The translations under genes and the position numbers were made by a program. 38,482 bases of DNA. It comes from a virus. Positions 1-18,457 of this stretch are shown one piece after another. How positions within the stretch are numbered: the stretch's first letter is position 1; each line of letters opens with the position of its first letter. The notes beneath the pieces were generated by a model, which saw only the letters and a list, made by a program, of their open reading frames with translations, did not search any database and was not told the origin of the DNA. The stretch is from positions 1 through 38,482 of the IMG/VR virus record IMGVR_UViG_3300032163_000050; one strand, given 5' to 3'.

Positions 1-191
1 TTTAATCTTTCCGCGAGAGCATTAACTAGCGCTTCCGGTTGTTCAGCTTCTACTGTCCACGGGATAGCGATCAAGTCAAAATCGCTTATTATGCTTCCAT
101 GCACACAAAGCGCATATCCTCTACAATGTGCCAATTCCGATAGTGCTGGGTATAGCGCAACGTAAGCAGGTGCGAATGTAGTTGTTCTCAT
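1..191 (-). CDS. Small phage-type protein, 3' end outside window (putative cassette gene)
   Basis: Begins with ATG at 191 on the minus strand, preceded by a GGAGAT ribosome site, and stays open to the window edge (63 codons visible). The visible protein starts MRTTTFAPAYVALYPALSEL and contains HGSIISDFDLIAIPW. It reminds me of small uncharacterised phage proteins with an HGS...D(F/L)DL core. The GS...DFD pattern is loosely like a nucleotidyltransferase active site, but the spacing is shorter than usual, so I assign no function. The gene begins just after the R'' box of the attC at 218-276, so it probably sits in a third gene cassette that starts at 223 and continues beyond the window. Confidence 0.65.
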   Translation of the reverse strand, partial: MRTTTFAPAYVALYPALSELAHCRGYALCVHGSIISDFDLIAIPWTVEAEQPEALVNALAERL

Positions 192-217
192 TCTTTCTAT
201 CTCCGATTAAAGTAGGG

Positions 218-276
218 GTCGAACCCAGCATTCAAGCGGGACGCGCTAAAGCGCGCCCCTTAATTTTACGTTGTGC
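218..276 (-). repeat. attC-like recombination site, left locus, site 2
   Basis: Read on the minus strand, R' is GCACAAC (270-276) and R'' is GTTCGAC (218-224). L' is ATTAAG and L'' is CTTGAAT, which pair if one G bulges out, the classic extrahelical base of integron attC sites. A GGGGCGCGCTTTAGCGCGTCC hairpin-type centre lies between them (21 nt including loop). R' is the exact complement of GTTGTGC at 482-488, the 5' start of the same cassette, as expected for a real cassette. Hairpin and boxes are seen directly; recombination activity is inferred. Confidence 0.85.
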
Positions 277-487
277 GTCATACTAAAAATTAGTGACCCC
301 GTATCTTTCGCAAGTTCTGCGAACCGGGGGGGGGTCGTTCCCTCCTGCGCTCTGTATTGAGGTTCCTTGCGACACACGCCAGTTCGAGTCGCTCATTCAC
401 GTACCGTTAATCCGGTTCCAGGCCTCTCTGTCCACAAGACTTATCCTGCTTGAGTTCAGGCGTTACATTGCAAAGTTAGACGCACAA
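224..487 (-). mobile_element. Integron-like gene cassette L2 (264 bp)
   Basis: Bounded by two G|TT crossover points on the minus strand: it starts with TTGTGC at 487 and ends at the G of GTTCGAC at 224. Its terminal attC (218-276) has R' GCACAAC, perfectly complementary to its own start GTTGTGC, so the circularised form would carry a self-consistent attC. It follows cassette L1 directly. Its only candidate gene is a 37-codon frame (283-396), so it may be a nearly empty cassette, an RNA cassette or a decayed one. A run of nine G on the plus strand lies at 326-334. Confidence 0.8.
283..396 (-). CDS. Tiny hypothetical ORF in cassette L2 (37 aa)
   Basis: An ATG-to-TAG frame on the minus strand, 37 residues, starting MSDSNWRVSQGTSIQ and ending RYGVTNF, placed just before the attC at 218-276 as cassette genes usually are. 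An in-frame TGA directly precedes the ATG, and I see no convincing Shine-Dalgarno sequence. The frame crosses a nine-base homopolymer that encodes Pro-Pro-Pro, so a single base error would change its C terminus. No family is recognised. It is listed because it is the only credible reading frame in this cassette. Confidence 0.3.
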   Translation of the reverse strand: MSDSNWRVSQGTSIQSAGGNDPPPVRRTCERYGVTNF

Positions 488-545
488 CCCTGCATTGGAG
501 CGGGACAGCCCAGAAGCGGGCTGCCCCTCAATTTGAACGTTAGGC
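482..545 (-). repeat. attC-like recombination site, left locus, site 1
   Basis: On the minus strand R' is GCCTAAC (539-545) and R'' is GTTGTGC (482-488). L' ATTGAG pairs with L'' CTCCAAT if one base is extrahelical (C here, where the other sites have G). The centre holds CAGCCC...GGGCTG as a hairpin. R' perfectly complements GTTAGGC at 744-750, the start of the cassette that this site terminates. The stop codon of the 61-residue gene (540-542) lies inside R', as is common for integron cassette genes. Confidence 0.87.
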
Positions 546-749
546 ATTTGGGTATTTTACATAAAAAGCAACTCTTCCTATCTCGTCGCATTCTTCAACA
601 AATGACCATACCTCGTCTGCAAACTTTTCCTTGCCGTAAAGATCATCTCCATATTTCAATGTTTCAAAATCCCATCGCTTATCAATGGCTCTTTTTGCAA
701 TCCGTATCATTTCTTGCTGTTCCATATTCCCTCCAGTTAAAATGCCTAA
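488..749 (-). mobile_element. Integron-like gene cassette L1 (262 bp, one gene)
   Basis: Runs on the minus strand from TTAGGC at 749 to the G of GTTGTGC at 488. It contains one gene (540-725) with its own ribosome site and a terminal attC (482-545). Its R' box GCCTAAC and its 5' start GTTAGGC are perfect complements, the signature of a genuine cassette. It directly follows the 66-residue gene that ends the recombination operon, so it would be transcribed from the phage leftward promoter and needs no promoter of its own. Confidence 0.87.
540..725 (-). CDS. Cassette L1 gene, 61-aa acidic hypothetical protein
   Basis: ATG at 725 is preceded by GGAGGG at good spacing. The 61-residue product begins MEQQEMIRIAKRAIDKRW and ends in GRVAFYVKYPNA. 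It is mostly helical, charged and rather acidic in the middle (FVEECDEIG), with no signal or membrane segment. Family unknown. The gene fills its cassette and its TAA stop is part of the attC R' box. Its size and plain composition suit a small regulator or an anti-defence factor, but nothing in the sequence decides this. Confidence 0.7.
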   Translation of the reverse strand: MEQQEMIRIAKRAIDKRWDFETLKYGDDLYGKEKFADEVWSFVEECDEIGRVAFYVKYPNA

Positions 750-762
750 CTACACGTTAGAG
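744..762 (-). repeat. Collapsed attC remnant or cassette insertion junction
   Basis: On the minus strand the stretch reads CTCTAAC (an R'-like box at 756-762), GTGTA, then GTTAGGC (744-750). Its first 12 bases, TAACGTGTAGTT, match the beginning of the intact attC at 13623, where the L' box and hairpin follow. The likely explanation is an attC that lost its centre by deletion between two short AGTT/GTT repeats. A cassette inserted at a non-attC G|TT site is the alternative. Confidence 0.5.
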
Positions 763-957
763 CGCTTGCTCACTCATCTGTCGAAGCGCCTCGGCCTTTT
801 CCGCTTCTGTTGCAAAAATCATCGGCACTATAGAGCCGAGATACTGTCCATATCCTCCTATGCCGGGGCCGTCTTTAACAATTTCGCGCAGGTAACTTAT
901 GTATGTTTCTTGCTCATTTTTATCGAGCGCTTGTAATACTTTATCAATCGTGCTCAT
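757..957 (-). CDS. Hypothetical 66-aa protein at the end of the recombination operon
   Basis: Starts at ATG 957, preceded by GGAG, only 2 bases after the stop of the exonuclease gene, so translation is probably coupled. The 66-residue protein begins MSTIDKVLQALDKNEQE and is helical, with a Gly-rich turn (GPGIGGYGQYLG) in the middle and an acidic tail. Family not recognised. An upstream in-frame start inside the exonuclease gene is possible but lacks a ribosome site. The stop codon overlaps the attC-remnant R'-like box at 756-762, which suggests that this gene too once preceded a full attC. Confidence 0.65.
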   Translation of the reverse strand: MSTIDKVLQALDKNEQETYISYLREIVKDGPGIGGYGQYLGSIVPMIFATEAEKAEALRQMSEQAL

Positions 958-959
958 TG

Positions 960-2600
960 TCAATCTCCGTTGTAAAATCCGCCCAACCCGGCGGTCAAGA
1001 GGGACTCCGCAAATACCTCGCGCATGCACTGCTCTGCTGCCGAGTAGGTCATGTTGAATTCCTTTGCCACGGCCTCGATCATCTGGATGCGGGTCGGGCG
1101 CGGCATTCCTGGAAGTGGCTCAAGTTGTGGCGTCACAGGTTCAGATTGCGTCACATGCGTGGCTGCTTCATCCTTGCGTTTTTGCTCTGCAATTACAGCT
1201 GCTTCAGCCAGTGCCGTTGCTCGTGCTTGCTGTTCAGCTGCAGCCTGTACTTTAGCAATTGCTTTTGCCTCTTCTTCAGCCTGGATGCGCGCGCGCTCTG
1301 CTTCAAGTCGCGTAGCTTCATCTGCCTTGTGCTTGTCAATGCGAGAGGCGATCAGCAGGGTAAAATCGTCCAGCGGCTTGATGATTATCTGCTGAAGATC
1401 AGGGAACAGGAACGACATGCCAGCGGCGTTATCTTTGCACCATGCCAGCTTTGCACGGATGTCTTTTGCCATGTTATCAGCGGCAAATTTTCCGTCACGC
1501 AGCACGGTATCTATAGCCTCTTGCATAGCGCTGAGTTTCTTTAGTCCCTTAATTGCTCCGGCAAAGTCAGGGCGAGTAATATTCAATTGGATAGGGCGAG
1601 TTTCTGATTCAAGACTTTCAACGTGAGCGCTAAAATCAATTCCTGCCTTGCTGATAATAGCCAGCTTCCTCGATTCTTTTTCAGACTTCACCAGCTTATC
1701 CAGCATCAGCCGCTTTGTAGCAAGCTGCGCTTTGATGTAGTCGATTGTCTTGATTGCCTCGTCAATGGTGGTTGTTTGCGCAAGGATGGCTTTTTTGGTG
1801 CCTTCCAGATCATCCTCGGCGGTCTTGCAAAACTTCACATTGGCTTCTGCATTGGAAAAATCTTCGTCCGTTACCAGCTCGGTTTTGATGTTGGCAATGA
1901 AAGTTTCAGCGGCCTTCTTGAATTCTGGCAGGTTGCTGGCGGTAATCATGCCTGTTGCTTGAATAGATACAGCAGGCAGACCCATGATTGCATCAGCCAC
2001 TGGCTTTTCTGTCACTTCTGGCGGCGTGTAGTTTTCCAAGTCCTTTGAGAACTGCACCCAACCATGCACGATACGGTCACGCATGGCCTGATCAGATTCA
2101 TACCAGATGTGAATTTCTTCAACCAGTTCATCGTTCGCGTCAAATTTTGAGGCCATGAACAGGCACTTAGTCGCGCCTGAAATCATAATCTGCTGTTCCA
2201 TTTGCGCGCAGTATTGCTCTGGTATCTGTCCGGCAGCAAAGGCTGCACGCAACGTGTCATTGAGCGACTTATGCTCAAAACAGATTGATTCATCCATGGT
2301 CAGGCCGTCAAACGATGCACTTAACTTTCCTTCAGATGCGGTGACTGGATACAACTCTTCACCGATGATCTTTTCAGCCAATGGGCGTGCAAGCGCCTCG
2401 AAGCGGTGGCCGTCAGCAAAGCGGCGCTCTGTGGCCGCATCGAATTCCTGGCTAATGCCGGTCGCCATTTCCTGCAATAGCTGGCTGCGTGTTTTGTACT
2501 GTGATACTCCAAGCATGGCCGGCGCATCGCTGGCATTGAAGTGATTGCTTCGGTGGTTGTGCCAAGCTGCTGAGCCCTGCTGTAAATTATGTTTTTGCAT
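960..2600 (-). CDS. YqaJ-type viral recombinase 5'-3' exonuclease
   Basis: A phage alkaline-exonuclease-like protein of 546 residues. It resects double-strand ends to give 3' single strands for RecT. The N-terminal half carries YqaJ signatures: QQGSAAWHNHR and ASDAPAMLG near the start, then SFDGL followed by CFEHKS (metal-binding Asp, Glu and Lys of the restriction-like fold), then QMEQQIMI. The C-terminal half is a long charged helical extension with an Ala/Glu/Arg-rich coiled coil and PQLEPLPGMPRPTR before a final helical segment, longer than a minimal YqaJ protein. ATG 2600 is chosen because GGGGG precedes it and it follows the RecT stop by 10 bases; an upstream in-frame start would overlap recT. 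Confidence 0.9.
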   Translation of the reverse strand: MQKHNLQQGSAAWHNHRSNHFNASDAPAMLGVSQYKTRSQLLQEMATGISQEFDAATERRFADGHRFEALARPLAEKIIGEELYPVTASEGKLSASFDGLTMDESICFEHKSLNDTLRAAFAAGQIPEQYCAQMEQQIMISGATKCLFMASKFDANDELVEEIHIWYESDQAMRDRIVHGWVQFSKDLENYTPPEVTEKPVADAIMGLPAVSIQATGMITASNLPEFKKAAETFIANIKTELVTDEDFSNAEANVKFCKTAEDDLEGTKKAILAQTTTIDEAIKTIDYIKAQLATKRLMLDKLVKSEKESRKLAIISKAGIDFSAHVESLESETRPIQLNITRPDFAGAIKGLKKLSAMQEAIDTVLRDGKFAADNMAKDIRAKLAWCKDNAAGMSFLFPDLQQIIIKPLDDFTLLIASRIDKHKADEATRLEAERARIQAEEEAKAIAKVQAAAEQQARATALAEAAVIAEQKRKDEAATHVTQSEPVTPQLEPLPGMPRPTRIQMIEAVAKEFNMTYSAAEQCMREVFAESLLTAGLGGFYNGD

Positions 2601-2610
2601 GATTACCCCC

Positions 2611-3546
2611 TTATTTTTCTTCGTGGCTATACGAATCAAGTGTCAATTTCTGGCTTTCTGTAAGCTTCGCACCCTTGCTTTCGATCATTGTTATCAGGTC
2701 AGAGACGGTCTGCTTTTTCTCGATGATGACCTTGCGCCAGCCTGCGGCCTTCTTGTCGAAGTCGGCTTGCTCCATCATGGTAATTTCGCCGGTATCTTGA
2801 TCAACCAATTCAGCGTTATTCCCAAACTGGTTGCCAACATCGACCACAATCCCGTTTTCAATGGTCGCGCCACGGCCAGCTTCTGAGGCATGACTAATTG
2901 CAATGGCATTGCTCATTTCGACAGAGCAGGGCATGTATTTCAGAACCTGCAACAAGGGCACCTTGCGACAGTACATTTCCCAGTCGCGGTGGCTGTAGTG
3001 CATCTTGCCGACCTTGTTATATTTGTCGCGGTGCTTCTTTATTTTGCCAACAGTCCACAACTCGATGACTGGCATGGAGGAATCTTTCACCCAGCCGATT
3101 GCATAGGCATGGGTAATGTCTTCCGGTGCATCAAGGTCTGTTTCGTTATGGATAATCAAGTCACGGCGCGCACCATCAGTGAATGTGTACAGCTGGTCTT
3201 TGAATATCACGCCGGTGAATACCGTACCGCGACCGCTGCGCGATACCAGGTCAACCAGTCCCTTCCATCCAGGAACAAAGGTGCATGTCTTGCCGTAGGG
3301 GATTAGATAACCTGCGCCGTTTACGCCCGGCTCAAGTCCAAGCTGTCCAGCGGTCATGATTGATGCCGCTATGGTCATCGGGTCGCACTCTTGCAGCTTC
3401 GGGCTGGTGCTGAATGCGGTCATTGCCAAACGCGCCATGCGGTCAGCGGTGAGGTGCTTCGGTAACGCAAGCGCAAGCTGAGGCTTCACCTTATCCATAA
3501 ATCCGCCGAACGATGCTATTGGGCTTAATGCTGTTCTGTCGTTCAT
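2611..3546 (-). CDS. recT: RecT-family single-strand annealing protein
   Basis: A 311-residue protein that anneals the 3' strands made by the exonuclease encoded just downstream, forming a RecE/RecT-type pair. RecT-family features include the N-terminal PKHLTADRMARLAMTAF, the conserved TIAASIMTAGQLGLEPG core, and YLIPYGKTCTFVPGWKGLVDL in the middle (two adjoining motifs). The C-terminal region carries DWEMYCRKVPLLQVLKY-like helices and an acidic tail. The ATG at 3546 has a strong AAGGAG. The gene lies fifth from the end of the leftward operon, transcribed from the promoter near 5100. Confidence 0.93.
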   Translation of the reverse strand: MNDRTALSPIASFGGFMDKVKPQLALALPKHLTADRMARLAMTAFSTSPKLQECDPMTIAASIMTAGQLGLEPGVNGAGYLIPYGKTCTFVPGWKGLVDLVSRSGRGTVFTGVIFKDQLYTFTDGARRDLIIHNETDLDAPEDITHAYAIGWVKDSSMPVIELWTVGKIKKHRDKYNKVGKMHYSHRDWEMYCRKVPLLQVLKYMPCSVEMSNAIAISHASEAGRGATIENGIVVDVGNQFGNNAELVDQDTGEITMMEQADFDKKAAGWRKVIIEKKQTVSDLITMIESKGAKLTESQKLTLDSYSHEEK

Positions 3547-3557
3547 TGTCCTTCTCC

Positions 3558-3731
3558 TTAAAATTTAGTATTCCGTGCGCAGAACCATGCGGCCTTGCGG
3601 GTGAAACTCTGCCGGCGCAATTGTTTGTACCGGCTGATCAAGATGGGAAGGCAGGCAATACACTTGACTACTGCGCTCACTTTTTCTTTTGCTGCCGACC
3701 ATATCCGGCCTATTAAGTCATCAATTGTCAT
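3558..3731 (-). CDS. Basic hypothetical protein, 57 aa
   Basis: A short gene in the 180 bases between recT and its upstream neighbour. ATG at 3731 overlaps the previous TGA (ATGA). The product begins MTIDDLIGRIWSAAKEKV, has a short hydrophobic, Cys-containing helix (VVKCIACLPILI) and a strongly basic end (SRYKQLRRQSFTRKAAW). This looks like a small membrane-associated or nucleic-acid-binding protein. Family unknown. The perfect overlap with its neighbour, the RecT ribosome site right after it, and its good fit to the gap support it. Confidence 0.6.
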   Translation of the reverse strand: MTIDDLIGRIWSAAKEKVSAVVKCIACLPILISRYKQLRRQSFTRKAAWFCARNTKF

Positions 3732-4000
3732 TTCATGCCTTCCACAAGTTTTATTTCCTTGATGTTGCAGGCAATGTAGGCACTGCCAATTTCAATCTGA
3801 TACCCGTTCAGGCAGGCGGCGAATGCGCTGGCCGCTTGAATCTGACTAGCATATTTCTTGGCCGCGTGGACATCTATCAAACCATCAATCAGGATTGCAG
3901 CAAGGGCAATGACAAGGACAATAATCAGCGGCCTTGTCCTGCGCTCCATTTCTTCGATGCGCTGTTCTTCGTCTATGCGTTTGGCATGGCACCCGATCAT
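3728..4000 (-). CDS. Single-pass membrane protein, 90 aa
   Basis: Start at ATG 4000, which overlaps the TGA of the 35-residue gene (ATGA). Residues about 1-21 are charged and helical (MIGCHAKRIDEEQRIEEMERR), followed by one membrane segment (PLIIVLVIALAAILIDGLID) and a C-terminal part with three cysteines. An N-in orientation is suggested by the charged N terminus. A longer in-frame start at 4114 exists but would bury the 35-residue gene and overlap the previous gene without need. Function unknown; small membrane proteins in PL-type operons often act against the host or against superinfecting phage, which is inference only. Confidence 0.6.
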   Translation of the reverse strand: MIGCHAKRIDEEQRIEEMERRTRPLIIVLVIALAAILIDGLIDVHAAKKYASQIQAASAFAACLNGYQIEIGSAYIACNIKEIKLVEGMK

Positions 4001-4104
4001 GATTGCACCCGTCCAACAATTACGAGGATCAGCGATATGATGGCGTAACATGATGCAGCCAGCAGCGCCAGCGCATCCCACTGGAATTCGTGTATGAATT
4101 TCAT
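3997..4104 (-). CDS. Membrane microprotein, 35 aa
   Basis: A 35-residue frame beginning MKFIHEFQWDALALLAA, with one hydrophobic segment (LALLAASCYAIISLILVIV) and a short basic tail (GRVQS). Both ends are joined to neighbours by ATGA overlaps: its start with the stop of the 115-residue gene, and its stop with the start of the 90-residue membrane protein. This chain of three coupled starts is strong support for such a small gene. The role is unknown; it could pair with the next membrane protein. Confidence 0.6.
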   Translation of the reverse strand: MKFIHEFQWDALALLAASCYAIISLILVIVGRVQS

Positions 4105-4826: not shown

Positions 4827-4902
4827 TGGTTGCGAGGGCAGGATTTGAACCTGCAACCTTCTGGTTATGAGCCAGACGAGCTGCCAATTGCTCTACCTCG
4901 CC
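4827..4902 (-). tRNA. tRNA with CAU anticodon (tRNA-Met or Ile2)
   Basis: A full cloverleaf of 76 bases, CCA encoded. Arms on the minus strand: acceptor GGCGAGG/CCTCGCA, D stem GAGC/GCTC with GG in the loop, anticodon stem TCTGG/CCAGA around CTCATAA, and T stem GCAGG/CCTGC around TTCAAAT. Six acceptor pairs are perfect, but position 1 (G) faces position 72 (A), which is unpaired. CAU could decode Met or, if modified to lysidine, AUA Ile. It would be made from the leftward early promoter. Confidence 0.93.
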
Positions 4903-7727: not shown

Positions 7728-7931
7728 GTGCCCTCAACAGTGCCTAATGTGGGCCAAACGGTCATGCTGACTGATCCAGAACTGGATTTGGTGCGCTCGA
7801 TTGCAGAGGCCGAGGGTATTACCGAGGATGAAGCGGCGAGCAGATTGACGAGTCAGGCATTGGCACGGCGAGTCAAGCGGAATACCGGGAAGACTCCGGC
7901 GAAGGTTTATCCGATGGGGAGACGGCATTGA
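7728..7931 (+). CDS. Hypothetical early protein, 67 aa
   Basis: Starts with GTG at 7728, almost directly after the previous stop. The protein contains a helical middle (DPELDLVRSIAEAEGITEDE then AASRLTSQALARRVKRN) and a basic tail (KVYPMGRRH). It resembles small phage proteins found before DUF1376 genes, with no known function. Its TGA overlaps the TTG start of the next gene (TTGA). Confidence 0.6.
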   Translation: MPSTVPNVGQTVMLTDPELDLVRSIAEAEGITEDEAASRLTSQALARRVKRNTGKTPAKVYPMGRRH

Positions 7932-8758
7932 ACTATTACGAGCGCCACCTTGGAGATTATGCCAAGGATACCCTCGGGTTATCCATGCTTGAACATGGGG
8001 CTTATAACTTACTTATAGATCGATGTTACGCCAAGGAAGAAGGTATTCCACAAGACAAAATTTACAAGGTCGCGCTTGCCAGAACAAAGGAAGAAAGGGC
8101 TGCTGTTGATTCAGTCCTGCAAGAATTCTTTAAATTGGAAAATGGTGTATGGAATAAAAATAGAATAACAGAAGAAATTTTTGCTTATAAGTCAGGAGAG
8201 CCTGAACGAGAAGCCAAGAAGGCAAATGAAAGCAACCGTCTCAGAAGGCACAGGGATGAGCGTGCAGATTTGTTCAAAATACTCACAGATTCAGGAGATC
8301 ATGCAGCATGGAATATAGGTATTAACGAATTACGTGAAATTGTGAAACGCATTCAAGGTGCACCATGCAAGCCGTTACCTGCAACGGCACCTGCAACGCC
8401 TGCAACGGCTACCCAGACACCAGACCCAGACACCAGTATAAATACCAACCAGCCAGTCACGCACGCGAGCACCTCGCAAAAATTTTCCATGCACATCGGC
8501 TGGAAGCCATCCGAGGAATTCGCCACGTTGGCAAAAATGGCAATGGTTGCCGTGCCAGACGGGAAGCTGGGGGAATTTATTGCCCACTGGCTGACCCAGC
8601 CGATTACTCAGCGAACGCAGGCTGAGTGGGACAAGGCGCTGCTGAAATCCGCCCAGCACGACAAGCTTCGAGCGGCCTCGCCGCTACCGGCAAGGGGCAG
8701 ACCGGCACCTGACAATTTCGCAACGAAAGACTACGGCACGGGGGTAAATCCGCTATGA
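7928..8758 (+). CDS. DUF1376 (YdaU-type) replication-associated protein
   Basis: 276 residues with the typical DUF1376 start, MNYYERHLGDYAKDT and LSMLEHGAYNLLIDRCYA, and a Thr/Pro-rich linker (TPATATQTPDPD) before a C-terminal helical domain (about residues 180-250) seen in phage replication proteins. It uses a TTG start that overlaps the previous stop. Next to a DnaC-like loader it probably acts as the origin-recognition partner, as in other lambdoid phages. The role is inferred from position; the domain assignment is firm. Confidence 0.85.
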   Translation: MNYYERHLGDYAKDTLGLSMLEHGAYNLLIDRCYAKEEGIPQDKIYKVALARTKEERAAVDSVLQEFFKLENGVWNKNRITEEIFAYKSGEPEREAKKANESNRLRRHRDERADLFKILTDSGDHAAWNIGINELREIVKRIQGAPCKPLPATAPATPATATQTPDPDTSINTNQPVTHASTSQKFSMHIGWKPSEEFATLAKMAMVAVPDGKLGEFIAHWLTQPITQRTQAEWDKALLKSAQHDKLRAASPLPARGRPAPDNFATKDYGTGVNPL

Positions 8759-9531
8759 ACGACATCCAGACAACCGTATTCGGCAAGCTGATCAGTGAAC
8801 CAAAAAACGACACTTGCGACAAGCACGGCGCGTTTGAAAGCCGGAATATTTTTGGCAAGGTTTGGTCTGGTTGCCCGGCCTGCAACAGCGAACAAAAGGC
8901 AATTGCCGAGCGCGAGCAGGCCGAAAAGGATGCGCAGGAGCGGCATGCTTCTTGGGTGCGCAGGATGGGCGAAGCTGGGATACCTGAACGGTTCAGAAAC
9001 CGCACGTTGGCAAGCTACAAGGCGACCAATGCAGGGCAGAAGCGGGCGCTTGTGTTCATGACTGAGTACGCGGAGCAGTTCAGCCGAGTGAGCGAGACTG
9101 GGCGCAGCGCGATCCTTTGCGGCTTTCCTGGCACAGGCAAGACACACCTTGCTATTGGTGTGGCGCTGCATGTGATGACGATAGGCAAGGCGGCTGCATT
9201 TACCACTGTTCAGCGCATGATTCGCCGGTTAAAAGATTCGTGGCGCAAAGATTCGCTTGAGTCTGAAAGCGATGTAATAAACCTGCTGGTGTACCCAGAC
9301 CTACTGATTATTGATGAAATTGGTGTGCAATTCGGATCGGAATTTGAAAAAAATTTCATGTTTGATTTACTCAATGAGCGCTACGAAAAACGCAAGCCGA
9401 CCATCCTGCTTTCCAATCTGACAACGGCTGAAATTGAAATATTTCTGGGTGAGCGCGTTTATGACCGGCTCAAAGAGGATGGGGGGCAGTACGTGTCGTT
9501 TGATTGGGTAAGTTTTAGGGGAAAAGCATGA
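8755..9531 (+). CDS. DnaC-like AAA+ helicase loader
   Basis: 258 residues. An N-terminal zinc-binding element is formed by C21, H24, C40 and C43 (TCDKHGAF then WSGCPAC). The Walker A motif is CGFPGTGKTH (residues about 122-131) and Walker B is LLIIDEIG. An arginine-rich segment (ERYEKRKPTILLSNL, then EIFLGERVYDRL) matches sensor/arginine elements of DnaC/IstB ATPases. It should load the host DnaB helicase at the phage origin, together with the DUF1376 protein upstream (ATGA overlap). Confidence 0.9.
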   Translation: MNDIQTTVFGKLISEPKNDTCDKHGAFESRNIFGKVWSGCPACNSEQKAIAEREQAEKDAQERHASWVRRMGEAGIPERFRNRTLASYKATNAGQKRALVFMTEYAEQFSRVSETGRSAILCGFPGTGKTHLAIGVALHVMTIGKAAAFTTVQRMIRRLKDSWRKDSLESESDVINLLVYPDLLIIDEIGVQFGSEFEKNFMFDLLNERYEKRKPTILLSNLTTAEIEIFLGERVYDRLKEDGGQYVSFDWVSFRGKA

Positions 9532-9773
9532 ATGCCGACTTTGAGTCACTGGCAAAAAAATACGGAATGAACATGGCGCTTTCGTTGAATGGGACAACTT
9601 ACCACGACCATGTAACGCAAATGGCTTACGAAATGTGGCAAGCGAGACAGCCTGAGATTGATCGGCTGACACAGGAAGTCTGCGATATGACCTTTGCGGC
9701 GAAGGCGTTTAAGAGTGTGCTTGATAAACAAAAGGCCGCATTTGCCACGGTGGCACAAGGTTGGGAAGCGTGA
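9528..9773 (+). CDS. Hypothetical early protein, 81 aa
   Basis: ATG overlaps the helicase-loader stop (ATGA). The protein starts MNADFESLAKKYGMNMALS and is helical, with EMWQARQPEIDRLTQEVC in its middle and an AAKAFKSVLDKQKAAF helix. It resembles the many small proteins of phage early regions that carry a W..R...I..L pattern. Function unknown. Confidence 0.65.
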   Translation: MNADFESLAKKYGMNMALSLNGTTYHDHVTQMAYEMWQARQPEIDRLTQEVCDMTFAAKAFKSVLDKQKAAFATVAQGWEA

Positions 9774-12389: not shown

Positions 12390-12897
12390 GAGTGCCAGGC
12401 ATGCTTTACAGTTTACGTTTCGTACTCTGGGAACCCCAATAGTCAAAATGTCCAGTATCAATAATATGCGCGGATCTGGTGGCAACGGTGATATGACCCC
12501 ACATGACCGGCACGCCCAGGCTGCGATGATTATGGCCATGGTGGAGCGGGTGGTAGATGTCAATGGGCTGGCATATCTAAAGGCCCAGTATGGCAGAGAG
12601 CTTACTGGCGGTGAAGAGGCTGATAAGATACGAGAAACATTAGTGCGCTGTGCGATGGCTGCAATGCCGACCGGAGTACACAGTAGTCGTGGAGTATCAA
12701 AGCTGATCAGTATCTATTTTGGTGGAAAAGTCAGTATGACTTCAGTCCGAACGGACTTTAGGTGCCGCAATGAACAATGCCAAGTCTATAAAACAATAGT
12801 CTCTGACATGCTGGATGTAGTCGGTAGGCGTGCAGAGGATGAGGTGTATAGGATATTGGATAAGGCTGGATTGATTGCAATGGTGATTTCAGCATGA
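12382..12897 (+). CDS. Putative late regulator (Q-like by position), 171 aa
   Basis: ATG at 12382 has GAAGGGG upstream; a GTG two codons earlier is also possible. It contains TPHDRHAQAAMIMAMVERVV in the first third, a helical middle (IRETLVRCAMAAMPTGVHSS), then a segment resembling DNA-binding helices with two cysteines (FRCRNEQCQVYKTIV). It is placed after RusA and before lysis genes, where lambdoid phages keep the antiterminator Q. I cannot confirm the family from sequence. The Q role is inference. Confidence 0.5.
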   Translation: MFKSARHALQFTFRTLGTPIVKMSSINNMRGSGGNGDMTPHDRHAQAAMIMAMVERVVDVNGLAYLKAQYGRELTGGEEADKIRETLVRCAMAAMPTGVHSSRGVSKLISIYFGGKVSMTSVRTDFRCRNEQCQVYKTIVSDMLDVVGRRAEDEVYRILDKAGLIAMVISA

Positions 12898-13067
12898 AGC
12901 AGAAATCAGTTACACAATCAGTAGAGCGAATTGTAACTTCATCATGGGATGAGGTAAAACATCTCCTGACAGAGAAAAATACCAGATTGATGGCATGGCC
13001 GTACAGAATGGATCGAACGGCAATTTACATTATTGTGAAACATAACGCAGAAATCAGGGGCGGCTGA
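12894..13067 (+). CDS. Hypothetical protein upstream of the resident attC, 57 aa
   Basis: ATG overlaps the previous stop (ATGA). The product begins MKQKSVTQSVERIVTSSWDE and has a beta-like core (RLMAWPYRMDRTAIYIIVKH). Its last ten codons lie inside the attC at 13040-13097, so its C terminus (NAEIRGG) is attC-encoded. This resembles the way cassette genes run into their attC. Function unknown. Confidence 0.65.
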   Translation: MKQKSVTQSVERIVTSSWDEVKHLLTEKNTRLMAWPYRMDRTAIYIIVKHNAEIRGG

Positions 13068-13097
13068 AAGCCGTCCCGCTGGATTGACGGGTTATGC
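13040..13097 (+). repeat. attC-like site, right locus, resident site (left half plus cassette R'')
   Basis: R' ACATAAC (13040-13046), L' AATCAG, hairpin CGGCT/AGCCG, L'' CTGGATT (pairs with L' if one G bulges out), R'' GTTATGC (13091-13097). Its R' is not the complement of the adjacent R'' but is the exact complement of GTTATGT at 13949-13955, beyond two cassettes. The original uninterrupted site was therefore split at G|TT by cassette insertion. Confidence 0.88.
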
Positions 13098-13133
13098 CAC
13101 GTTTTTAGCCTCGAAAATAATTTGATAAAAAGC

Positions 13134-13162
13134 TTGACTATTATTAGATATAAGGCTAGACT
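13134..13162 (+). promoter_or_regulatory. Promoter within cassette R1
   Basis: TTGACT (13134-13139), a 17-base spacer and TAGACT (13157-13162), in an AT-rich stretch unlike its neighbours. It lies about 48 bases before ATG 13210, leaving room for a short leader and the AGGAGA ribosome site. Confidence 0.7.
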
Positions 13163-13209
13163 GTATTCATGGTTAGCGATTGGCGCGAACCGGCTACAGG
13201 AGAAACAAA

Positions 13210-13443
13210 ATGAACATCATTGAAAAAGACTTTGCCAGCATCCTCAACAATGACCCAGATGGTGAGCGTGTATTTTTGAGCATAGCAAGCGAATTAAACG
13301 ACGATGGCGAAGAGCGGTTTTTTATTGTTACCGATAGCGAGGAAGACACTGGGCCACGCGAGAAAACAAAAGAGGCTGCAAAGGCAAATGCCGAGGCCAT
13401 GTGGGGTACGCCAAATAGCCCCTGGGATTTACAGTACTCATGA
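13210..13443 (+). CDS. Cassette R1 first gene, acidic 77-aa protein
   Basis: AGGAGA precedes ATG 13210 by seven bases. The product starts MNIIEKDFASILNNDPDGER, is strongly acidic and has an alternating core (ERFFIVTDSEEDTG). It ends in an overlap (ATGA) with the second cassette gene. An acidic protein followed by a basic DNA-binding-type protein could be a DNA-mimic/regulator pair or a toxin-antitoxin-like couple. Neither is recognised as a known family. Confidence 0.7.
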   Translation: MNIIEKDFASILNNDPDGERVFLSIASELNDDGEERFFIVTDSEEDTGPREKTKEAAKANAEAMWGTPNSPWDLQYS

Positions 13444-13628
13444 GCGGCGGCAAACGTGAGGGGGCCGGACGGCCCCCAATTGACCCACGATTGCTCAAGG
13501 TGCCGGTGGGGTACAAGCTGCCGCGCTGGCTCGTTGATTGGATACGAGAACAGGATAAACCCGCCGCGCTGCTGATCGAAGAGGCGTTAAAAAAACGGCA
13601 CAAACTGAAACCGCCCGAAGGGGCATAA
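13440..13628 (+). CDS. Cassette R1 second gene, KREGAGRP-type basic protein, 62 aa
   Basis: Begins MSGGKREGAGRPPID, a Gly-Arg-Pro DNA-contact-like start common in short phage and plasmid proteins, then LPRWLVDWIREQDKPAALLI with a helix and EEALKKRHKL. This resembles a small ribbon-helix-helix-type protein. The ATG overlaps the previous stop and its TAA (13626-13628) lies inside the attC R' box, typical for cassette genes. Likely DNA-binding; exact function unknown. Confidence 0.75.
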   Translation: MSGGKREGAGRPPIDPRLLKVPVGYKLPRWLVDWIREQDKPAALLIEEALKKRHKLKPPEGA

Positions 13629-13685
13629 CGTGTAGTTGAGGGGCGCGACGCTTTACCAGCGTCCCGTTCGAACGGAAAGTTAGGC
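13623..13685 (+). repeat. attC-like site of cassette R1
   Basis: R' GCATAAC (13623-13629), L' GTTGAG, perfect hairpin GACGCT/AGCGTC, L'' TTCGAAC with one extrahelical G, R'' GTTAGGC (13679-13685). R' complements GTTATGC at 13091 (the cassette's own start), and R'' belongs to the next cassette. It shares the GTTGAGGGGC segment with the site at 13896. Confidence 0.9.
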
Positions 13686-13949
13686 AACGAAAGGATGGGA
13701 AATGAATAACTGTTTAAATTGTAAGTATGAACCTCTATGGCACGATCCTGTTGGAAAAGAACATCCTCGACAATCAGGTGAGTGTCGTTGGGATGGGGTT
13801 ATTCCTGCTATGCCTAAAATATACAGGATCGAAAAAGGAATCATTGTTAAATATTCCGATAATTCAGGAGTTCCATCAAACTGCAAAACATGGGTGCCTA
13901 ACGTGGAGTTGAGGGGCTGCGCTTCTCAGCAGTCCGCTCGAACGTAGGG
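13680..13949 (+). mobile_element. Integron-like gene cassette R2 (270 bp, one gene)
   Basis: Runs from TTAGGC at 13680 to the G at 13949. Its own R' (GCCTAAC, 13896-13902) is the exact complement of its start GTTAGGC. It contains one gene (13702-13947). Past its end the sequence TTATGT completes the resident R'' that belongs with R' at 13040. The cassette arrived either before or after R1; both sit in tandem. Confidence 0.9.
13702..13947 (+). CDS. Cassette R2 gene, four-cysteine protein, 81 aa
   Basis: ATG at 13702 follows AAGGATGGG. Residues 1-65 hold C4, C7, C28 and C61 (NNCLNCKYEP, GECRWDG, SNCKTWVP), probably a small metal-binding domain, with IPAMPKIYRIEKGIIVKY between. From about residue 66 the reading frame is translated attC (NVELRGCASQQSART), a familiar sign of a cassette gene lacking its own stop before the attC. 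Its overall pattern resembles the four-cysteine phage proteins at 11508 and 12198. Function unknown. Confidence 0.78.
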   Translation: MNNCLNCKYEPLWHDPVGKEHPRQSGECRWDGVIPAMPKIYRIEKGIIVKYSDNSGVPSNCKTWVPNVELRGCASQQSART

Positions 13950-13955
13950 TTATGT
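13896..13955 (+). repeat. attC-like site of cassette R2, with resident R''
   Basis: R' GCCTAAC (13896-13902), L' GTTGAG, hairpin CTGC/GCAG, L'' CTCGAAC with extrahelical G, and R'' GTTATGT (13949-13955). R'' is the far half of the resident site that begins at 13040. Both L boxes are clean. Confidence 0.88.
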
Positions 13956-14202
13956 TTCACAATAGAGTAAGCATGTAAGCCCATGCGTACCAAGCCCATA
14001 AGTATCACATCTTTGCGAAAGCATAGACTATGGCGGCAAGAGTTTGGAGTTGGAAGTTGCGACCAGCACTCTGTCTTTCGTGATATTAGATAAAAGAGCT
14101 TGTTTTTTTTGGAACGATTAGGTAGAAGTTTTATCTACTCTGCGGTTTTTCTTCCCGAAAGGGTAATTTGTCGTAGAGCAAGGTTCCCCCTGAACAGAGT
14201 TT
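13956..14202. other. Non-coding interval before the lysis genes
   Basis: About 250 bases after the cassette locus without a credible gene. In lambdoid phages the late promoter and antitermination site lie here. I see several AT-rich patches but no sigma-70 promoter that I would defend. It ends at the terminator hairpin at 14203. A late promoter pR'-like signal is the best guess for its content. Confidence 0.4.
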
Positions 14203-15199: not shown

Positions 15200-15696
15200 G
15201 TATCGAGGCAAAATTACTTGCCTGGCTGGTGTCTATAGCCATGGTATTTGCGGTGCTATTCAGTGCGTATGAGTACGGGCGGCATGCCGAAGGGCAGAAG
15301 AGGGACAACGAAGCATTGACTGAGCGACTGGAATACGCAAAAGCCTTTGACAAGGCGCAGGCCGCGAACGACACACTTAAAACCGATGGAGCCGAACAAC
15401 ATGCGCAAGACATTGCAGATAACAACCGTATTCGTGATGAGTTTTCTACTTTTCGCCTGCACCTGCCCAAGCCGTCCGCCTGTACTGGTGTACCCAACCC
15501 CTCCAGCGGAAGCTTGGATGGACTTGCCGGAAGCGGGATACGCCCAGAGCCAGAGCAAGCAGCGTTTGACCGATTTACAGACGGACTTAAACAAGATTCC
15601 TACCGAATAGACTCGGCATTGGACTCATGCAGGGTGGTAGTGACCTGGGCACGCTCTCTATGCAAGCTTAACAATACTTGCATGGAGGCGAAGTGA
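15196..15696 (+). CDS. Rz-like inner-membrane spanin subunit
   Basis: 166 residues from ATG 15196, which overlaps the holin stop. It has an N-terminal signal-anchor (LLAWLVSIAMVFAVLFSAYE) followed by a long periplasmic charged helix (KRDNEALTERLEYAKAF...). An Rz1 lipoprotein is encoded inside it in another frame (15401-15610), the classic embedded arrangement. Together the pair would join inner and outer membranes and break the outer membrane in the last step of lysis. Confidence 0.87.
   Translation: MSIEAKLLAWLVSIAMVFAVLFSAYEYGRHAEGQKRDNEALTERLEYAKAFDKAQAANDTLKTDGAEQHAQDIADNNRIRDEFSTFRLHLPKPSACTGVPNPSSGSLDGLAGSGIRPEPEQAAFDRFTDGLKQDSYRIDSALDSCRVVVTWARSLCKLNNTCMEAK
15401..15610 (+). CDS. Rz1-like outer-membrane spanin lipoprotein, embedded in Rz
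   Basis: 69 residues, read in the +1 frame inside Rz. Starts MRKTLQITTVFVMSFLLFAC, a lipoprotein signal peptide with lipobox LFAC and Cys20, then a Pro-rich periplasmic part (PSRPPVLVYPTPPAEAW). This is the hallmark o-spanin. It should be acylated and sorted to the outer membrane. Confidence 0.9.
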   Translation: MRKTLQITTVFVMSFLLFACTCPSRPPVLVYPTPPAEAWMDLPEAGYAQSQSKQRLTDLQTDLNKIPTE

Positions 15697-16037
15697 TGCC
15701 CCCAGAGAATGAAATGATCGTCTTCCGCCTGACGAACCTGGAAAAGATTACCTCAGACATGGCTGTTGCCGTGAAGAGCATAGCCGAATCGCTGACGACT
15801 TTGGCGCGGCTGGAAGTGAAGCATGAAGAGACTAGGGTGGCTATTGAGCGTGCCTTTGCTGAAATCGAGCGCAACCGAATAGCACAAGAGGTTATTAACA
15901 AGGATATTGAGCATCGTTCCAGAGCTGTTGAATCAGAAATGCCAACCATGAAAATGACTCGTGGCTGGATGATTACCGGCGCAACCAGTGCGCTCGGGAT
16001 ACTTTGTGTTGCAATCATAGCGCTGGTACTCAAATGA
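15696..16037 (+). CDS. Coiled-coil protein with C-terminal membrane segment, 113 aa
   Basis: ATG overlaps the Rz stop by one base (TGATG). The N-terminal 85 residues form a long charged helix (IVFRLTNLEKITSDMAVAVK to AFAEIERNRIAQEV), then WMITGATSALGILCVAIIAL as a C-terminal membrane anchor. Short tail-anchored coiled-coil proteins of this sort occur in phage lysis blocks and may act as a second holin, antiholin or membrane-linked spacer. No family assigned. Confidence 0.72.
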   Translation: MPPENEMIVFRLTNLEKITSDMAVAVKSIAESLTTLARLEVKHEETRVAIERAFAEIERNRIAQEVINKDIEHRSRAVESEMPTMKMTRGWMITGATSALGILCVAIIALVLK

Positions 16038-16264
16038 CCTCAAAACATAAAAGTATTGCCATGACCCGCGTGAATTCCAGCCAAGTAACTCATGCTGGGT
16101 ACGATCCAGAGTCAAAGACGCTTCAAATTCAGTATAAATCGGGCGGAACGTATACCTACAAGGACGTTTCCCAAGAGAACTACGACAAACTGACAAAGGC
16201 AGAATCCTTCGGCAAGTATATGTATACGCATATTGCCGGGCAGCATTCTCACGTAAAGCTATGA
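16034..16264 (+). CDS. KTSC-domain small protein
   Basis: 76 residues; ATG overlaps the previous stop. Residues 12-70 match the KTSC domain pattern (VNSSQVTHAGYDPESKTLQI, GGTYTYKDVSQENYDKL, AESFGKYMYTHI), a small beta-sheet domain found alone in phages and sometimes with other modules. Function not established; the domain name is more certain than any role. It lies directly before the small terminase (ATGA overlap). Confidence 0.85.
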   Translation: MTSKHKSIAMTRVNSSQVTHAGYDPESKTLQIQYKSGGTYTYKDVSQENYDKLTKAESFGKYMYTHIAGQHSHVKL

Positions 16265-16905
16265 GCAATGAAAAGAAGGTAATTGACTGGGAAGCCATCG
16301 AGAAGGATTGGCGCGCTGGGATTAAGTCTGTTTTGCAGATTTCTAAGGAATATGGGTTATCACACACAGCTATAAATAAGCGATTCAAGAAGCTCGGAGT
16401 ACCAAGAGATTTGAAAGCTAAGATAAAAGCCAAAGCCGATGCTATGGTTTCAATCGCTATGGTTTCAGCTTCGGTTTCAACTGAAACCAAGTTTAACGAA
16501 GTAGAGATAATTGAAGCAAATGCCACGATTCAGGCGAATGCGTTGCTTGATCACCGTACAGATATAAAGCGTCACAGAGCATTGTCTATAAGTCTGCTGG
16601 CTGAAATAGAGGCAGAGACAAGTAACCCTGAATTATTCGAGCAGCTTGGAGAAATGCTGGCCAAACCAGATGACAAGGGCAATGACAAGCTGAATGAGCT
16701 TTATCGCAGGGTTATTTCAACACCTTCGCGCATAGACTCAATGAAGAAACTGGCTGAGACATTAAAGACTCTTGTTGCTTTGGAGCGCCAGTCTCTCGGG
16801 CTTGATGATGATAAAAAGCCAGACGACAATCCTATTGGTGAGTTTTTGAAGGCATGCAGTGGCCGAGGATTGCCAGTAGTAACAGATGACGATGAGCAAA
16901 ACTGA
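16261..16905 (+). CDS. Small terminase subunit (TerS-like)
   Basis: 214 residues with an N-terminal helix-turn-helix (DWEAIEKDWRAGIKSVLQIS then KEYGLSHTAINKRFKKLG) that would bind the packaging site, a long central helical region (ASVSTETKFNEVEIIEANAT...) for oligomerisation, and an acidic C terminus (DDKKPDDNP, VVTDDDEQN). Position directly before the large terminase and fold pattern fit TerS. The stop overlaps the next gene's start region. Confidence 0.85.
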   Translation: MSNEKKVIDWEAIEKDWRAGIKSVLQISKEYGLSHTAINKRFKKLGVPRDLKAKIKAKADAMVSIAMVSASVSTETKFNEVEIIEANATIQANALLDHRTDIKRHRALSISLLAEIEAETSNPELFEQLGEMLAKPDDKGNDKLNELYRRVISTPSRIDSMKKLAETLKTLVALERQSLGLDDDKKPDDNPIGEFLKACSGRGLPVVTDDDEQN

Positions 16906-18457
16906 TGCCGCATTTACGCGCCTGAAAGAAGAATACGGCGAAAAACTTGCTGATCCGATGTGGAGAATATGCTCGGGAGCAATTTACAAAATCATCATAA
17001 AGGGCGAAAAAGCCGATGATGAGTTGGTGATTCCGTTCATCCCAAATAAGGCGCAGATGCGCTTTTTGAAGCGAATGCACCACAGAAATTTGATTTTGAA
17101 AGCTAGGCAGCGCGGGTTCACGACACTGATAGCCATTGCGTGGCTGGACCATGCCTTGTGGGTTGGGAATAGTCGGTGCGGTATCGTGGCGCATGACCGA
17201 GAGGCCGCCGAGGTGATATTCCGCGATAAAGTGAAGTTCGCCTATGAAAATATGCCGGAACTATTGAGGCTTGCATTCCCGCTTGGGAAAGATAGCGCCA
17301 GTGAATTGCTGTTTGCTCACAATAATAGCTCTGTTCGTGTGGCTACATCTATGCGCTCAGGAACGATACACCGGCTGCATATATCTGAGTTTGGCAAGAT
17401 ATGTGCCAAATCTCCAGATAAGGCAAAGGAAGTAGTCACTGGGTCACTCCCGGCGGTTCCGACAACTGGCGTGACAGTAATTGAATCGACGGCAGAGGGT
17501 GACGAGGGCGAATTTTATGATATGACGCGCCGGGCTATGGAAATGCAAGAGCAAGGTTTGAAGCTGTCGTCGCGCGATTGGCGGTTTCACTTTTTTGCAT
17601 GGTGGGATGACAGCCCAGAGTATGAGTTGGATGCCGGAATCGTGGCTGTAACGCCACAAGACCATGATTATTTCAATGCCATTGAGATTGAAATGGAGTG
17701 CGAGCTAAGTCAAAGGCAACGTGCATGGTACGTTGCTACACGAGAAGCGGATTTTTCTGGTGTGCGCGAAAGAATGTGGCAGGAATATCCTTCCACACCA
17801 AGCGAGGCGTTTAAGAGGTCTGTTGAGGGATGCTATTACGCGCAGCAGATGGTAGCGGTTCGCACACAAGGGCGTATTTTGCGGATACCAGAGACGCAAG
17901 CCCCAGTAGATACATTCTGGGACATTGGTAATTCTGATGGTTGTGGTATTTGGTTTATGCAGCAAGTTGGGCTTGAGGATAGATTCTTGAAATATGCTGA
18001 AGGCCACGGCCTGACGCTCAAGGACTATATGAAAATACTACAAGACACGGGTTATTTGTTTGGTAAACACTTTTTGCCGCATGACGCAGGTAATAAGCCA
18101 TTAAGCGATACAAATAAGTCTGTGATAGAGCAGCTTGAGACGCTTGGGCTGAAGAATATTGTACGAGTACCGCGTATTAGTGATCTTGGCGCAGGAATTC
18201 AGCTCACCAGAGCGCATTTTCCTTCTGCATGGTTTGATCAAGATGGTTGTGAGCTCGGGATAAGAAGGCTCAATAACTACAAAAAGAAATGGGACTCAAG
18301 ACAGGGAAGATTTAATGAGTCAACCCCAGAAAAGAATGATGGGAATAGTGAGGGTGCTGATGCTTTTAGGCAGTGGGCCCAGGCTAAGGACTCCGGGTTA
18401 ATTGGACGTAAAGCAGATAAAGGATTGGACTATGGTGCAAGATCAGATTGGTTCTAA
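16892..18457 (+). CDS. Large terminase subunit (TerL), packaging motor
   Basis: 521 residues. The N-terminal ATPase has a Walker A-like loop near residues 70-78 (KARQRGFTT) and Walker B-like LHISEFG. The C-terminal nuclease domain carries its acidic residues in FWDIGNSDGCG, LPHDAG and EGADAFRQ. It powers DNA translocation into the prohead and cuts genome ends. ATG 16892 is used; 16886 is also possible (two codons longer), and neither has a strong ribosome site. The gene overlaps terS, and the portal start lies inside its end. Confidence 0.9.
   Translation: MSKTDAAFTRLKEEYGEKLADPMWRICSGAIYKIIIKGEKADDELVIPFIPNKAQMRFLKRMHHRNLILKARQRGFTTLIAIAWLDHALWVGNSRCGIVAHDREAAEVIFRDKVKFAYENMPELLRLAFPLGKDSASELLFAHNNSSVRVATSMRSGTIHRLHISEFGKICAKSPDKAKEVVTGSLPAVPTTGVTVIESTAEGDEGEFYDMTRRAMEMQEQGLKLSSRDWRFHFFAWWDDSPEYELDAGIVAVTPQDHDYFNAIEIEMECELSQRQRAWYVATREADFSGVRERMWQEYPSTPSEAFKRSVEGCYYAQQMVAVRTQGRILRIPETQAPVDTFWDIGNSDGCGIWFMQQVGLEDRFLKYAEGHGLTLKDYMKILQDTGYLFGKHFLPHDAGNKPLSDTNKSVIEQLETLGLKNIVRVPRISDLGAGIQLTRAHFPSAWFDQDGCELGIRRLNNYKKKWDSRQGRFNESTPEKNDGNSEGADAFRQWAQAKDSGLIGRKADKGLDYGARSDWF

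Follow-up and report, generated by a model that had tools for sequence, protein, structure and literature searches.

Integrons have been studied as bacterial tools, above all in the context of resistance. Bacterial gene cassettes are usually promoterless, and the integron promoter can read them only when they lie parallel (PMC3607928). CALINs, clusters of attCs that lack an integrase, have also been published in phages (Qi et al. 2023, PMC9892861); of six phage attCs assayed in that study, taken from three phages other than the one analyzed here, five were recombined with attI1 by IntI1. An earlier note on the DNA analyzed here had proposed a phage that keeps a docking site for integron cassettes and had taken this to be a non-standard phage feature; that judgment was partly anticipated by the phage CALINs of PMC9892861. 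We found that systematic antiparallel polarity between the genes and their attCs is what is new here.

The window, by which we mean the whole stretch of DNA analyzed, is an IMG/VR virus record of 38,482 bases. It encodes a P22-like portal (Pfam E 8e-103), a major head protein, a GH19-type endolysin, an antirepressor and a repressor-like HTH gene, a gene content from which we concluded that the phage is temperate and P22-like. The locus DNA gave no match to GenBank phages, and the 173-aa and 57-aa genes upstream of the locus, used as queries, recovered no relatives. A search of 399 genomes from a single bacterial order recovered no close relative of the window terminase, and three terminase relatives with 54–60% identity (G019, G021 and G022) carried no attC. 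A further terminase relative, L107 (G020; 57%), had seven attC sites elsewhere in its genome, at record positions 20–4025. An Rfam scan of the window at gathering thresholds matched a tRNA alone; a tRNA-Met(cat) gene lies at 4827–4902 on the minus strand and is perhaps a portion of an attachment site.

The window was searched with a covariance model (R1) of 63 positions, made from 35 bacterial-only attCs from public bacterial genomes. R1 found exactly five attCs (E 4e-16 to 2e-11), and no match beyond these five appeared up to E 10. Three of them form one locus on the minus strand: S1 (13040–13097; 49.6 bits, E 2.4e-11), S2 (13623–13685; 60.3 bits, E 2.4e-14) and S3 (13896–13955; 55.4 bits, E 5.6e-13). 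These are the sites that the earlier note had proposed from their boxes, and the covariance-model check identified all three as genuine attCs (E 2e-11 to 2e-14). The note had listed no others and so missed the two on the plus strand, at 218–276 and 482–545. The sites have R boxes, L boxes with an extrahelical base and a conserved fold, and they match on a single strand, as integron attCs do. A strict RYYYAAC regular-expression scan missed the window attCs because several boxes deviate from the consensus.

S1, S2 and S3 were matched by R1 on the minus strand only. As a reference, the textbook aadA1 attC of plasmid R100 scored 47.5 bits on the aadA1 strand versus 5.2 bits on the other strand, indicating that the strand calls of R1 are trustworthy. 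The single orientation proposed earlier for the three sites was thus borne out, whereas their assignment to the plus strand was not. The extrahelical G of the L boxes was likewise present as described; it lies on the plus strand and makes that strand the folded, recombinogenic bottom strand, which reverses the polarity that had been assumed. With attCs on the minus strand, the strand that folds and recombines is the phage coding strand. Single-strand folding energies did not discriminate between the attC strands. Box complementarity is symmetric and would be compatible with attCs on the plus strand, a resident site at 13040 and the usual bacterial cassette polarity, and the stop codons inside boxes also resemble those of normal cassettes. 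However, R1 calls the minus strand only, the extra base of the L box is on the wrong strand for that arrangement, and cassette A (described below) has more in common with its relatives in the 5' attC than in the 3' one. We regard a plus-strand reading as scarcely credible.

The attC hairpins lie close behind each gene stop, and PMC9892861 mentions that attCs can act as weak terminators. Both points would suit hairpins that function in RNA, by terminating, processing or stabilizing the transcript behind each small gene, with their attC likeness being secondary. Against such a function, the 63-position bacterial attC model matches a single strand only, no T-run terminator was found on the gene strand at the sites, and the boxes covary by cassette and not by hairpin, which makes an RNA role very improbable as the explanation.

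The boxes of the locus, on the plus strand, are ACATAAC (13040), GTTATGC (13091), GCATAAC (13623), GTTAGGC (13679), GCCTAAC (13896) and GTTATGT (13949), and these positions and the three perfect 7-base pairs are exactly as the earlier note had given them. GTTATGC and GCATAAC (7/7) bound cassette A (13046–13628, minus strand; 583 bp), and GTTAGGC and GCCTAAC (7/7) bound cassette B (13629–13901, minus strand; 273 bp). The remaining pair joins the outermost boxes, the R'' box ACATAAC of S3 being complementary over 7/7 bases to GTTATGT of S1; the outer box of S1 (ACATAAC on the plus strand, 13040–13046) is part of the resident site. Read along the minus strand, the order is the left part of the resident site (13955–13902, bounded by ACATAAC), cassette B (13901–13629), cassette A (13628–13046) and the resident TTATGT (13045–13040). 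S2 is the site of cassette B, S1 is the site of cassette A, and S3 supplies the resident attC with its body (13902–13955) and left box, the other box of the resident being the one split at G|TT.

The whole insertion is flanked by an extended inverted repeat of two 22-nt arms, at 13025–13046 and 13949–13970 on the plus strand, that are 91% complementary to each other. Inverted complementarity continues past the outer boxes at 13 of the adjoining 15 bases; this is the best flank match of all complementary box pairs in the window (n = 84), and the second best reached 9/15. When the empty resident site was rejoined, it formed one long hairpin of -52.1 kcal/mol (RNA parameters). Nesting of two cassettes at the G|TT of one resident attC is supported by these features of the sequence. 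The earlier idea that two insertions split a resident attC at G|TT is retained, and the resident is S3 instead of the site at 13040, because placing the attCs on the minus strand swaps the resident role and the cassette role of S1 and S3. A resident phage ORF of 57 aa (12894–13067, plus strand) enters the insertion at its 3' end and has an altered C-terminus; in the empty-site frame it would end NVELRGCASQQSART, and it now ends NAEIRGG. The 22-nt arms of the resident attC are longer than those in any other phage array examined, and the left arm lies inside this ORF.

The second array lies near the 5' terminus and contains the plus-strand attCs at 218–276 (61.0 bits, E 1.5e-14) and 482–545 (66.8 bits, E 3.6e-16), the R'' box of the latter being complementary over 7/7 bases to the R' box of the former. 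A 61-aa gene (540–725, minus strand; an RBS-started ORF) is antiparallel to its attC. The array as a whole (218–1006) is decaying, with genes on the minus strand and antiparallel to the plus-strand attCs; it includes a remnant, GCCTAAC-TACAC-GTTAGAG (about 744–762), which resembles an attC that has lost its hairpin, as well as a half-site near 981–1006.

Cassette A carries two genes on the plus strand, preceded by a putative promoter (TTGACT-17-TAGACT, 13134–13162, plus strand) that matches the consensus and by a putative operator, GCGATTGGCGCGAACCG (13176–13192, plus strand), that is conserved across module copies. The promoter match taken alone is not above shuffled expectation; TTGAC-type promoter sequences also occur upstream of the operator in other module copies. 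The first gene (13210–13443, plus strand; an RBS-started ORF) encodes a 77-aa cargo protein with no relatives and no Pfam, PHROG or PADLOC match. The second (13440–13628, plus strand), whose stop codon lies inside an attC box, encodes a 62-aa partner that its homologues and an AlphaFold model mark as a probable ribbon-helix-helix repressor. The model (pLDDT 73) has helices at residues 29–37 and 42–54, as expected for this fold, and homologues are encoded in phage loci L129, L140, L135, L094 and L137 (47–82% identity) and in plasmid pLM8P2 (61% identity). The window protein itself had no significant family or fold match, Foldseek on its model returning only the Arc repressor at an insignificant E of 9.4; the partner protein of the L120 copy matches an Arc-like repressor PHROG (E 2.6e-6). 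Cassette B carries one gene on the plus strand (13702–13947; an RBS-started ORF) that reads through S3 and encodes an 81-aa protein with a Cys-rich start and no family match.

Anti-CRISPR operons with aca repressors have a promoter and an operator, a variable small first gene and a conserved DNA-binding last gene. Cassette A is probably a regulated cargo module with an accessory role, in which the 62-aa ribbon-helix-helix-like protein probably represses the cassette A promoter. Because the layout resembles that of anti-CRISPR/Aca operons, counter-defence is a reasonable guess for the cargo, one that we hold as possible and less likely than not.

The cassette A layout recurs in other phages and in two plasmids. 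Related modules were located in other phage contigs with the operator pattern, and the operator GCGATTGGCGCGAACCG is kept in L120/L146, L129, L135, L136, L137, L140 and L147 and in the plasmids L020/L021. The cargo position holds a different protein in each related module, of 67–112 aa in the cassette copies. In L129, L137, L140, L120, L136 and the window, an attC of the same type stands on the 5' side of the module genes. The inner box of this attC reads GTTATGC or GTTATGT and is complementary to the module-end box, although no such partner was found in L137. The outer box of this attC varies (ACATAAC, GCCCAAC, CCCTAAC, CTCTAAC or GGCTAAC in the sequences shown), and the 3' attC of the module is unrelated or absent in the relatives. 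Mean identity of the module attCs was 0.72 at the 5' end versus 0.62 at the 3' end, a modest difference if taken alone. The recurrence of the attC body with a changing outer box indicates that the attC in front travels with the genes, as the minus-strand reading has it. The site at 13040 cannot then be the resident attC, as had been thought: S1 is part of the larger cassette, and the S1 body accompanies this cassette in other phages.

A related unit, bounded by the boxes GTTATGC and GCATAAC, occurs in plasmids of Pseudomonas sp. LM8 and Z8. In L020 and L021, two small Pseudomonas plasmids, the unit consists of related cargo and a repressor-like gene, has retained the complementary boxes and lacks a 3' attC; a recombinase gene and an antitoxin-like gene are close by. 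At 7778–8515 of the phage contig L135, the operator is followed by a RadC-family gene, encoding a 167-aa cargo protein (Pfam E 8e-41), and by a repressor-like gene, with no attC nearby, indicating that the module exists outside cassettes too. Operator-pattern matches in L130–L134, L138, L139 and L141–L145 lacked a partner gene and were apparently due to chance, and the pattern was absent from 399 genomes of a single bacterial order. The variation in relatives that the earlier note had looked for was seen in part, in that the larger cassette occurs in other phages, and a related unit in two plasmids, beside other neighbors and with other cargo. Neither the upstream genes nor the hairpin pattern, used as queries, recovered an allele of the exact locus that was empty or carried other cassettes; a 370-kb contig, the lone match to the empty-hairpin pattern with the same arms, was discarded because R1 found no attC in it.

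Pattern scans of IMG/VR combined with model searches revealed attC arrays in about 20 phage records, with at most a dozen sites each. A terminase match was present in the window phage, in eight other IMG/VR records and in MW202573; most of the phage records are metagenomic contigs, and about half of the records had no detected terminase match. The boxes at the two cassette ends matched perfectly over 7 bases in 37 of 51 phage cassettes, whereas 20,000 shuffles averaged 8.6 such matches and never exceeded 19, and a perfect match inside a single attC site was seen in 6 of 63 phage sites. Homologous cassettes were shared by different phages, including L099 and L100 (81%), where the homology ends at the box itself, and L097 and L098 (84%), where it ends at or just inside the attC; S2 is near-identical to sites in L097, L098 and L101. 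The units of the locus show two properties of integron gene cassettes, namely complementary end boxes and occurrence in varied neighborhoods with homology ending at the boxes.

The near-identity of same-subtype attCs between phages means that they could act as short homologies, and the window has RecT-like and exonuclease-like genes, named from reading of the sequences. It is conceivable that the hairpins are now mere homology and that phage recombinases shuffle attC-flanked genes without an integron integrase, an enzyme that none of the phage records encodes. Repeat-based homologous recombination, however, would not preserve the complementarity of both unit ends, which covary 7/7 far above shuffles while differing from cassette to cassette, nor would it alter the outer box of S1 yet retain the S1 body. 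We consider this explanation unlikely, and favor movement of the cassettes by an integron integrase; homologous recombination could also spread existing attC-flanked units.

Integron integrases were searched with the profile TIGR02249, counting matches above the cut-off. None of the 21 phage records, the window included, had such a match, whereas among the sampled bacterial genomes that carry this attC family 13 of 18 encoded IntI, and none of 14 controls did. No IntI match was found in the record of 38,482 bases, possibly itself incomplete, and what it shows is not a complete integron; with three attCs within 0.92 kb and no TIGR02249 match, it agrees with the definition of a CALIN. The earlier note was right that the window lacks an integrase and that cassette movement would need IntI in trans. 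Given phage records without IntI and a majority of the sampled bacterial genomes of this attC family with it, a host integrase acting in trans is the simplest reading.

We compared the strand of cassette genes with that of their attCs, taking for each cassette the longest ORF that starts behind a Shine-Dalgarno-like motif. In the phage cassettes of this attC family, from about 20 IMG/VR records, 57 of 58 genes were antiparallel to the attC, whereas in bacterial cassettes of the same family under the same rules 9 were antiparallel and 37 parallel (n = 46; Fisher p 2e-18 for 57:1 versus 9:37). A looser ORF test gave antiparallel-to-parallel ratios of 53:11 in phages and 18:123 in bacteria; choosing the longest ORF regardless of its start was noisy and was superseded by RBS-started ORFs. 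The genes of cassettes A and B are antiparallel to their attCs and co-directional with the phage operon, and in neither window array do genes run parallel to the attCs, as is usual and not strictly required of cassettes. L120 (G004) carries one array on each strand, at 8483–9741 and 15404–17508, and in both the genes run against their attCs. As both G004 and the window have arrays on opposite strands that are each antiparallel, the polarity tracks the genes and not a fixed genome strand. The depositors' gene calls for MW202573 show the antiparallel polarity as well; the virulent phage TJE1 has parallel polarity by R1, and the antiparallel rule is therefore not universal in phages. No report of inverted cassette polarity was found in the open-licence papers searched. 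The antiparallel layout in about 20 other phages suggests, at the level of sequence, a pool traded mainly between phages.

Taken together, we consider it highly probable that the locus is a CALIN in which two cassettes entered the resident attC of a temperate P22-like phage at its G|TT, that the folded strand of the attC would be recombined in trans by a host integron integrase, that the cassettes come from a phage-traded pool and that cassette A is regulated. Cassette A would be a unit with its own promoter, operator and variable small gene, and its ribbon-helix-helix-like gene would repress the promoter. Insertion by attC x attC recombination fixes the cassette orientation, and with the orientation fixed and the resident attC antiparallel to the operon, only cassettes with antiparallel genes would be readable with the operon. 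Such a polarity would partition the phage pool from bacterial cassettes. A founder effect is another possible cause, and easier folding of the coding strand while it is being transcribed may be a further alternative. Going further, we tentatively suggest, at somewhat less than an even chance, that environmental Beta/Gammaproteobacteria host a private phage cassette economy, kept apart by a polarity lock despite the shared host IntI and trading switchable counter-defence modules. If the polarity lock is true, inverted-gene cassettes would be silent behind a host integron promoter. A large set of oppositely polarized phage cassettes would mean that phages run a gene market of their own on the recombination machinery of the host, which would explain the exact-unit swapping of small phage accessory genes. 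Comparing the attC strand with the gene strand offers a simple handle for finding many candidate phage accessory or anti-defence genes.

The locus can be placed among the known systems as follows. Cassette A is like anti-CRISPR/Aca operons in its conserved layout and operator, variable cargo and putative DNA-binding last gene; it differs in that the last gene product is ribbon-helix-helix-like and of no known Aca family, in being packaged as an integron cassette and in that anti-CRISPR activity is putative. Chromosomal integrons of Gallionellaceae, Nitrosomonadales, Thiobacillus, Acidithiobacillus and Methylobacter have the same attC family, boxes and cassette logic as the window, but in integrons of environmental Beta/Gammaproteobacteria the genes are mostly parallel (37:9) and the genome usually encodes IntI. 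Insertions at attG (Loot et al. 2024, via PMC12901181) likewise consist of cassettes inserted by IntI outside an integron platform; they are reported to use a non-classical site, whereas in the window the cassettes entered a complete attC whose arms are extended. The phage CALINs of PMC9892861 share with the window at least two attCs in a phage genome and no integron integrase, and one of the phages of that study, MW202573, carries the attC family of the window. Antiparallel polarity, which we found in the window, is not mentioned in the text consulted from that study, and to phage CALINs the window further adds a resident hairpin with 22-nt arms and a cassette that combines cargo and repressor.
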